Positions 37,596 to 38,437 of a stretch of DNA of 64,000 nt are shown piece by piece. The translations under genes were made by a program, and so were the position numbers. Positions within the stretch are counted from its first letter, which is position 1, and every line of letters begins with the position of its first letter. Location of the stretch: the NCBI GenBank assembly GCA_951801675.1, contig CATONX010000002.1, positions 1 to 64,000 of the forward strand. The letters are read 5' to 3'. The stretch is from an uncultured Eubacteriales bacterium. GTDB lineage: Bacteria; Bacillota; Clostridia; Oscillospirales; Acutalibacteraceae. The notes beneath the pieces are model-generated. The model was not told the DNA's origin, did no database searches, and saw nothing but the letters and a program-made list of their open reading frames with translations.

Positions 37596-37732
37596 GATAT
37601 ATTACGGTTGGAATCTTGATGAGCCTGAGAACAGAAAATACTGCTTACGTAGGAACTAACATCAGTATTACTGATATGGGTGGGTTCCTGTTTTTATAAT
37701 TTTTCGTTATAGTTAAGACGAGGTGATAGCGA

Positions 37733-37945
37733 ATGACGTATCGATTACTTGAAGCAAGGAAAGAGGCGGGATTCAGCCAGGAAGAGGTGGCAAAGGCCAT
37801 CGGCGTAACGTTGCGGACCTATCGGCGCTATGAGGAAAAAGGAGCCAATTCCATGCGGCTGCCTGTGCTCGTGAAGCTTGTGGATTTGTATGGATGCACG
37901 GTGGATTGGATGACCGGACGCACCGAGAAGCGAGAGCTTCGATGA
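37733..37945 (+). CDS. XRE-family HTH regulator (70 aa)
   Basis: LLEARKEAGFSQEEVAKAIGVTLRTYRRYEEKGANSMRLPVLVKLVDLYGCTVDWMTGRT. Confidence 0.9.
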   Translation: MTYRLLEARKEAGFSQEEVAKAIGVTLRTYRRYEEKGANSMRLPVLVKLVDLYGCTVDWMTGRTEKRELR

Positions 37946-37955
37946 CTCCCAGGCT

Positions 37956-38289
37956 GCCCCTTTCTTTTGCTCCGCCAAAAGAAAGAGGCGAAAGAAAAGG
38001 CGGTTCAAGGGGGAAAAAGACGCTAGGAACGGGGACACAAATTTTTCCCCCTTGAAAATCCCCCTCTTATCGGAGGAGGGCAGGGGGAAGAAAACAAGAT
38101 TTGGTGAAATAGAATCACCAATCCCAGATGACGAGTAGAGAAGGCGGTGAATTCTTTTCACCAGCCCAGCCGAGCGGACAGAGGGATTCTTAAGGGAGAA
38201 AAACCTTTTCCCCGAACTTTACGCCGTTTTTCTCCCTTAAGTCGCCCTTTCTTTGGTTCGTTTCTTTCGGCGACGCGAAAGAAATGAAC
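37956..38289. repeat. MITE/BIME-like composite hairpin element with ~63-bp terminal inverted repeats
   Basis: 37956-38018 versus reverse complement of 38227-38289: about 46/63 identical by ungapped hand alignment; nested hairpins at both ends. Confidence 0.75.
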
Positions 38290-38437
38290 ACGATGTCAGG
38301 TAGAAACCGGACGGAAGGGACCGACGATCCAGCGTCGTCGAAGAATAACACAGCGATTCCCCAATTCCCGCCTTTTCGCATTGCGTCCGGGCCTCATCGG
38401 TGCTATCATGGCAGTAGAACCGAAGGGAGGAATCGGT

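Follow-up and report, generated by a model that had tools for sequence, protein, structure and literature searches.

REP-type repeats are among the commonest repeats of bacterial genomes, and the enzyme studied so far, TnpA-REP/RAYT, acts on GTAG-tagged units. Membership of the MITEs needs both target duplications and a cognate transposase. A REP is defined by the tetranucleotide GTAG (or CGTC) at its hairpin foot (PMC3733652), and the GTAG tag has a role in recognition (PMC8266576). The element described here lies in the window, the whole 64,000-nucleotide stretch of DNA that was analysed, and it shares with REP, BIME and REPIN sequences the short palindromic units, the inverted pairs, the mosaics, the lone units, the intergenic dispersal and the non-autonomous nature. 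As in a REPIN, an inverted pair of units is able to form one long hairpin. Its units, however, are about 100 nt in length as against 20-40, and they combine a covarying loop-to-upstream pseudoknot with the lack of a GTAG/CGTC tag, the foot of every unit listed being TTTCTTTG or TTTCTTTC before the hairpin. Two further differences are that RAYT was not found in two carriers of the element, and that within the genus the element is linked to the exchange of XRE genes. Because two defining REP tests failed (GTAG tag and RAYT), we file the element as a BIME/REPIN-like dispersed palindromic repeat and not as a REP.

The 334-bp element (37956-38289) lies in the gap between a small XRE/Cro-type HTH gene (37733-37945, plus strand; 70 aa, HTH_3 in Pfam), the stop codon of which lies 10 nt 5' of the element, and sir2 (PF02146). 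Upstream of the XRE gene is a flavoprotein gene (PF02441), which from its neighbourhood we take to be dipicolinate synthase B, dpaB. The element is composed of two inverted copies of one unit of about 100 nt, facing outward on both sides of a spacer, and as a whole it is represented among the matches in its own genome and in two other genomes of the genus. Within each unit, an inner stem-loop of 15 bp is followed by the segment X of 5 nt, then by a pyrimidine linker of 9 nt and of the TTTCTTTG type (CTTTCTTTG or TTTTCTTTC), and then by the outer hairpin of 14 bp, whose loop contains X', complementary to the bases just 5' of the linker. The left unit (37956-38056, 101 nt, read on the minus strand and aligned with 21 other units) includes the inner stem-loop (38004-38056), the X segment CCGCC (37999-38003) facing GGCGG at the loop in the pseudoknot helix, the linker TTTTCTTTC (37990-37998) and the outer hairpin (37956-37989), with its stem at 37956-37969/37976-37989 and X' within the 6-nt loop at 37970-37975. 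The right unit (38189-38289, 101 nt, plus strand) includes the inner stem-loop (38189-38241), the X segment TCGCC (38242-38246) facing GGCGA at 38269-38273, the linker CTTTCTTTG (38247-38255) and the outer hairpin GTTCGTTTCTTTCG-GCGACG-CGAAAGAAATGAAC (38256-38289). The central spacer (38057-38188), with small stems of the TTGGTGA/TCACCAA type, shows the lowest conservation of the element. Outside the right hairpin follows module H (ACGATGTCAGGTAGAAACCGGACGGAAGGGACCGAC; 38290-38325, plus strand), which is common to many copies.

The first-pass annotation of this DNA had described inverted arms of about 63 bp together with outer hairpins, inner hairpins and spacer stems, and had considered the region to be other than random intergenic DNA. 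The arms match at 46 of 63 positions; the mean for equally spaced 63-mer pairs from the rest of the window is 15.9 (sd 3.6), and a match of this level was reached by 1 of 20,000 random draws. All the stems named in that annotation are present at the coordinates it gave, and the RNA fold of the region (z = -5.96) was matched in stability by no shuffle. It was correct on the inverted repeats but overlooked that both ends are one and the same unit in inverted form (65 of 101 bases identical between the units), and correct on the stems but overlooked the pairing of the loop with upstream bases. The shared sequence beyond 38289, up to about 38325, also escaped it, and the XRE gene was named as a neighbour but its part in the story was not seen.

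Each unit is predicted to form an H-type pseudoknot, in which the loop segment X' pairs with X just upstream of the linker, and the loop-to-upstream pairing with covariation by which such a pseudoknot is recognised was indeed observed. All three helices covary. For 22 distinct units of the genus, 97.4% of the cells pair, against 91.0% in shuffles and 63% or less with slid partners, and double-sided changes over the whole structure amount to 68, against 22.9 in shuffles and at most 7 with slid partners, in agreement with the earlier claim of compensatory changes, which thus holds on real homologues. Pairing in the pseudoknot helix reaches 98.9% among the genus units, with double-sided changes at two of four pairs, X and X' changing together between TCGCC/GGCGA, CCGCC/GGCGG, CTGCC/GGCAG and TTGCC/GGCAA. 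Since related sequences easily beat shuffles, the slid control and the cross-phylum test described below weigh more. The crossing pairing implies a single strand, either RNA or single-stranded DNA. The letters of the linker would also permit a triple helix, with TTTCTTT as a third strand running parallel to AAAGAAA.

The element is dispersed and its copies are mosaic. Copies were sought in the window's own genome and in related genomes, as the first-pass annotation had proposed, by sequence searches of draft assemblies, where some repeats may have been collapsed or truncated by the end of a contig; the genus comparison covers three genomes, the window's own (G000, 2.36 Mb), G001 and G002. A total of 20 full or partial matches was detected in G000, the window copy and four others spanning most of the element, and 10-18 matches in each of the other two. 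Elsewhere in the family and order, one of the genomes searched, G008, matched clearly, doing so 15 times and only through the end hairpin. For the exact outer-hairpin pattern, the genus genomes gave 11 (G000), 8 and 3 copies, and the reversed pattern gave none. The copies include whole elements, one-unit elements ending at around window position 38127 and lone hairpins, the last being flanked by recurring modules, namely H and pieces ending in ..CTTTTAGAGT or ..CTTTTGTT. A single-copy region free of homologues and of covariation had been named beforehand as the outcome that would speak against the element; instead it is multicopy, with homologues and with covarying pairs.

Searches of plasmid and phage collections gave no element match, and viral contigs gave two matches, with the core pattern only. 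Two other candidates were rejected: sRNA-Xcc1, considered as a possible match, had no Rfam hit, and for spread by reverse transcriptase no RVT_1 was present in any of the three genus genomes. The open-access literature yielded nothing pertinent on the core sequence, on a pseudoknotted repeat or on XRE cassettes. One copy of the element (G000:C17:23723-24790; L065:6723-7790) is interrupted by some 1 kb of DNA with an ORF for an HNH endonuclease (PF01844, L065:7130-7429). About 50 bp of the element is duplicated across the insertion, which resembles one of the homing type.

Within the genus, the elements are strongly associated with small XRE-type genes. In the window's genome, 14 of the 64 HTH_3 matches among those listed are located less than 1.5 kb from a hairpin, against 0.9 expected, and 7 of 46 HTH clusters lie near a hairpin (P = 3e-6). 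An HMM count over the genus placed 22 of 30 XRE genes within 300 bp of a hairpin, against 2.0 expected, the HMM having been trained near hairpins and the loci chosen for them. The hairpin-linked XRE genes are diverse (HTH_3, HTH_26) and about 70-90 aa in length, and the outer hairpin is often located 10-90 nt 3' of their stop codon. The same association was sought around the units of G049 and G008 and was absent there, indicating that the XRE link is no inherent property of the unit class. Four tandem small XRE genes at G000:C1:61384-62418 (L059:5385-6419) lie directly 5' of an element, and their C-terminal tails are near-identical (DYxLGRTDDPTPPKDA..PY.PEEK).

The XRE genes next to the outer hairpin are present, absent or replaced while the flanks stay. 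Between the orthologous dpaB-sir2 intervals of the sister species G000 and G001, the promoter region is 82% and the element 87% identical, while the XRE ORF is without similarity: the G001 gene belongs to HTH_26 and that of G000 to HTH_3, with no nucleotide similarity, and their global alignment shows 10 identities. The site in G002 has a third XRE-like frame, of which no more than the 3' end can be read, and a degraded element of 69% identity follows it. The element at the dpaB-sir2 site thus looks old and vertically inherited (G001, and G002 at 69%). The window's module of ribosome-binding site, XRE ORF (XRE-A), left outer hairpin, linker and X (37723-38004, plus strand) recurs at a second G000 locus, on C17, in other surroundings, with 93.6% identity from -9 to +272 relative to the ATG. 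Another gene, XRE-B, is present with its hairpin at two loci in G001, the shared part extending from the ATG to the hairpin end (0 to 264), and a two-gene XRE module is located at different sites in G000 and G002. On C4 of G001 there is XRE-B with the hairpin, and neither is found at the orthologous site on C3 of G000.

Upstream of the XRE start, at window positions 37640-37700, are the palindrome ATCAGTATTACTGAT and GGAACTAA..GGGTTCC, which are kept in G001 despite the unrelated XRE coding sequence, suggesting an operator-like site that is not tied to one XRE protein. A further orthologous locus, hypervariable in three species (L063:7150-8250, L067:4450-5800 and L075:7800-9250), varies in how many XRE genes and how many hairpin modules it contains. 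Several of its XRE genes have their own palindromic operator, and a terminator-like GTGAAAGATCAGAATATTCTGATCTTTCAC is common to them.

Units of similar architecture occur in other phyla. With a pattern in which linker and stem were fixed and X and the loop were left free, more than 116 stretches were found, in Desulfobulbaceae, Mariprofundus, Bacteroidetes, Latescibacterota, Kangiella, Luteimonas, Microgenomates and Clostridia. The longest Watson-Crick run between X and X' averages 4.12 over 52 distinct combinations, against 2.99 when shuffled (maximum of 500 shuffles, 3.42), with such examples as AAGCG/CGCTT, CGTGC/GCACG and GGTGGCC/GGCCACC, and pair counts over 34 sequences gave 14 double-sided cells against 1.8 in shuffles. 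The X/X' pairing is not kept by every relative, as in G155 and in several loops among the 52 combinations. Conservation of the stem in this set is by construction, except at the pattern-free R/Y positions, where the G-U wobble is the commonest state (29 of 34 sequences). A relaxed pattern detected 2 of 149 genomes of the order, as for a patchy class, and this is an undercount because the pattern misses the window's own genome, the hairpins of which read TTTCTTTC/T. No recurring neighbour gene was found in the other phyla, beyond the shared orthologous neighbourhoods of related species.

Desulfobulbaceae and other phyla contain long structured repeats, for which we know of no name, that share with the element the 3'-terminal arrangement of X, TTTCTTTG and a hairpin with X' in its loop, and that likewise occur in many copies per genome. 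In contrast, the Desulfobulbaceae repeats have another body, of about 190 nt with a fairly sharp 5' edge, which the unit closes, and they are single-ended and without XRE neighbours. This type (AAATCCCATTGGC...GAAATGAAC; L112:6040-6270 and about 55 similar loci, L100-L215) is present in many copies per genome and is not in Rfam, and some of its copies lie within a larger inverted repeat, CTGATTACCAAGCAATCTCAG. In G008 and G049 the unit is preceded by a different inner stem, and G049 (L082-L096) and G008 (L077, L097 and L098), which belong to other genera, contain two further multicopy repeat families of like layout and different sequence, in about 20 and 15 copies, respectively. An Rfam search with the window and its relatives gave no family above the gathering threshold for the unit; the sole non-tRNA match, in Kangiella taiwanensis (L116:2533-2658), was a TwoAYGGAY RNA (RF01731, 47.5 bits) located outside a pseudoknot unit, some 25 nt 5' of it.

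The first-pass annotation had offered a MITE/BIME-type element or a structured RNA. The dispersal, the inverted units, the mosaic copies and the covariation agree with its proposal, but classical REP/BIME identity does not stand, given the missing GTAG tag and RAYT. The inverted pairs of short palindromic units, the mosaics, the lone units and a single Y1 transposase in G000 would be expected of a genuine REPIN/BIME mobilised by a RAYT, the tyrosine transposase associated with REPs; the untagged hairpin foot speaks against it, as does the outcome of the proposed search for a matching transposase or RAYT, in which no PF01797 match was obtained in the incomplete drafts of the carriers G001 (about 90% complete, 18 element matches) and G008 (about 96%, 15). 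No element hairpin was found on contig C19, which carries the Y1 gene of G000. We regard movement by RAYT as very unlikely. A classical MITE, with terminal inverted repeats cut by a DDE transposase and a target-site duplication, is very unlikely. The element's length of 334 bp, the imperfect terminal inverted repeats of about 63 bp, the dispersed copies in moderate number and the absence of coding capacity do resemble a MITE, but the ends are variable (GTTC or GCC type) and also occur alone, one-unit, single-ended pieces are common, no target duplication was seen in two filled/empty comparisons, the junctions of which were too rearranged for a clear reading, and no transposase gene was noticed at the copies read.

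The recurrence of an ORF with a structured 3' site as a module resembles integron gene cassettes (ORF plus attC), the site being foldable as a single strand, and at some loci different XRE genes separated by modules form arrays. An integron-like or other dedicated site-specific system, with the pseudoknotted hairpin as attC and the XRE ORFs as cassettes, could draw on the five or six phage-type integrases of each genus genome; however, none of these is linked to units, no integron integrase or platform was identified, the loci are scattered and do not make up one integrase-associated array, the promoter of some XRE genes comes with the gene, and the left border of the module is not fixed. We regard such a system as quite unlikely; the resemblance is one of layout, and ordinary recombination between repeats could produce such modules. 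Action at the RNA level is likelier, though still rather unlikely: the pseudoknot, possibly with TTTCTTT as third strand on AAAGAAA, would control decay, termination or translation from the 3' UTR of XRE and other mRNAs, dispersal being secondary. The outer hairpin following many XRE stops at 10-90 nt, the covarying helices, the strand-specific G-U wobble as the commonest stem state across phyla and the sequence compatibility of TTTCTTT with a parallel position on AAAGAAA are consistent with this, but the units are found in both orientations relative to genes and also 5' of start codons, Rfam gave no match, and a G-T wobble would fit single-stranded DNA equally well. Unlikely, too, is a broader proposal, that an uncatalogued widespread repeat class has a conserved pseudoknot (possibly triplex) as its recombination site and in the genus drives cassette-like XRE exchange, the coding sequence being swapped under a fixed promoter.

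The explanation that we prefer, with a probability of about 0.55, is that the element is a dispersed repeat, BIME-like and non-autonomous, and that it serves as a junction for the exchange of regulator genes. Each of its two inverted units of about 100 nt would end in the predicted H-type pseudoknot, and a putative enzyme acting in trans would bind the folded unit, either as RNA or as the single-stranded DNA that replication exposes. The copies may act as recombination junctions, through which XRE genes would be exchanged as modules that begin at the ribosome-binding site or the start codon and extend to the hairpin, and the regulators may spread by repeat-mediated homologous recombination and not by a dedicated recombinase. 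Against this junction model, the enzyme search yielded no candidate, neither a recurring neighbour gene in other phyla nor an XRE association around the G049 and G008 units was observed, the dpaB-sir2 element appears old and vertically inherited, no target duplication was established, and X/X' pairing is not kept by every relative; homologous recombination or independent losses could also account for part of the XRE replacement.

A second repeat class with a covarying pseudoknot, extending from Clostridia to Desulfobulbaceae, Mariprofundus and Bacteroidetes, some of whose carriers lack a detectable RAYT, would suggest that a further processing enzyme exists. The replacement of the XRE gene between a conserved promoter and a conserved element provides a concrete, testable case of regulator exchange beside such repeats.
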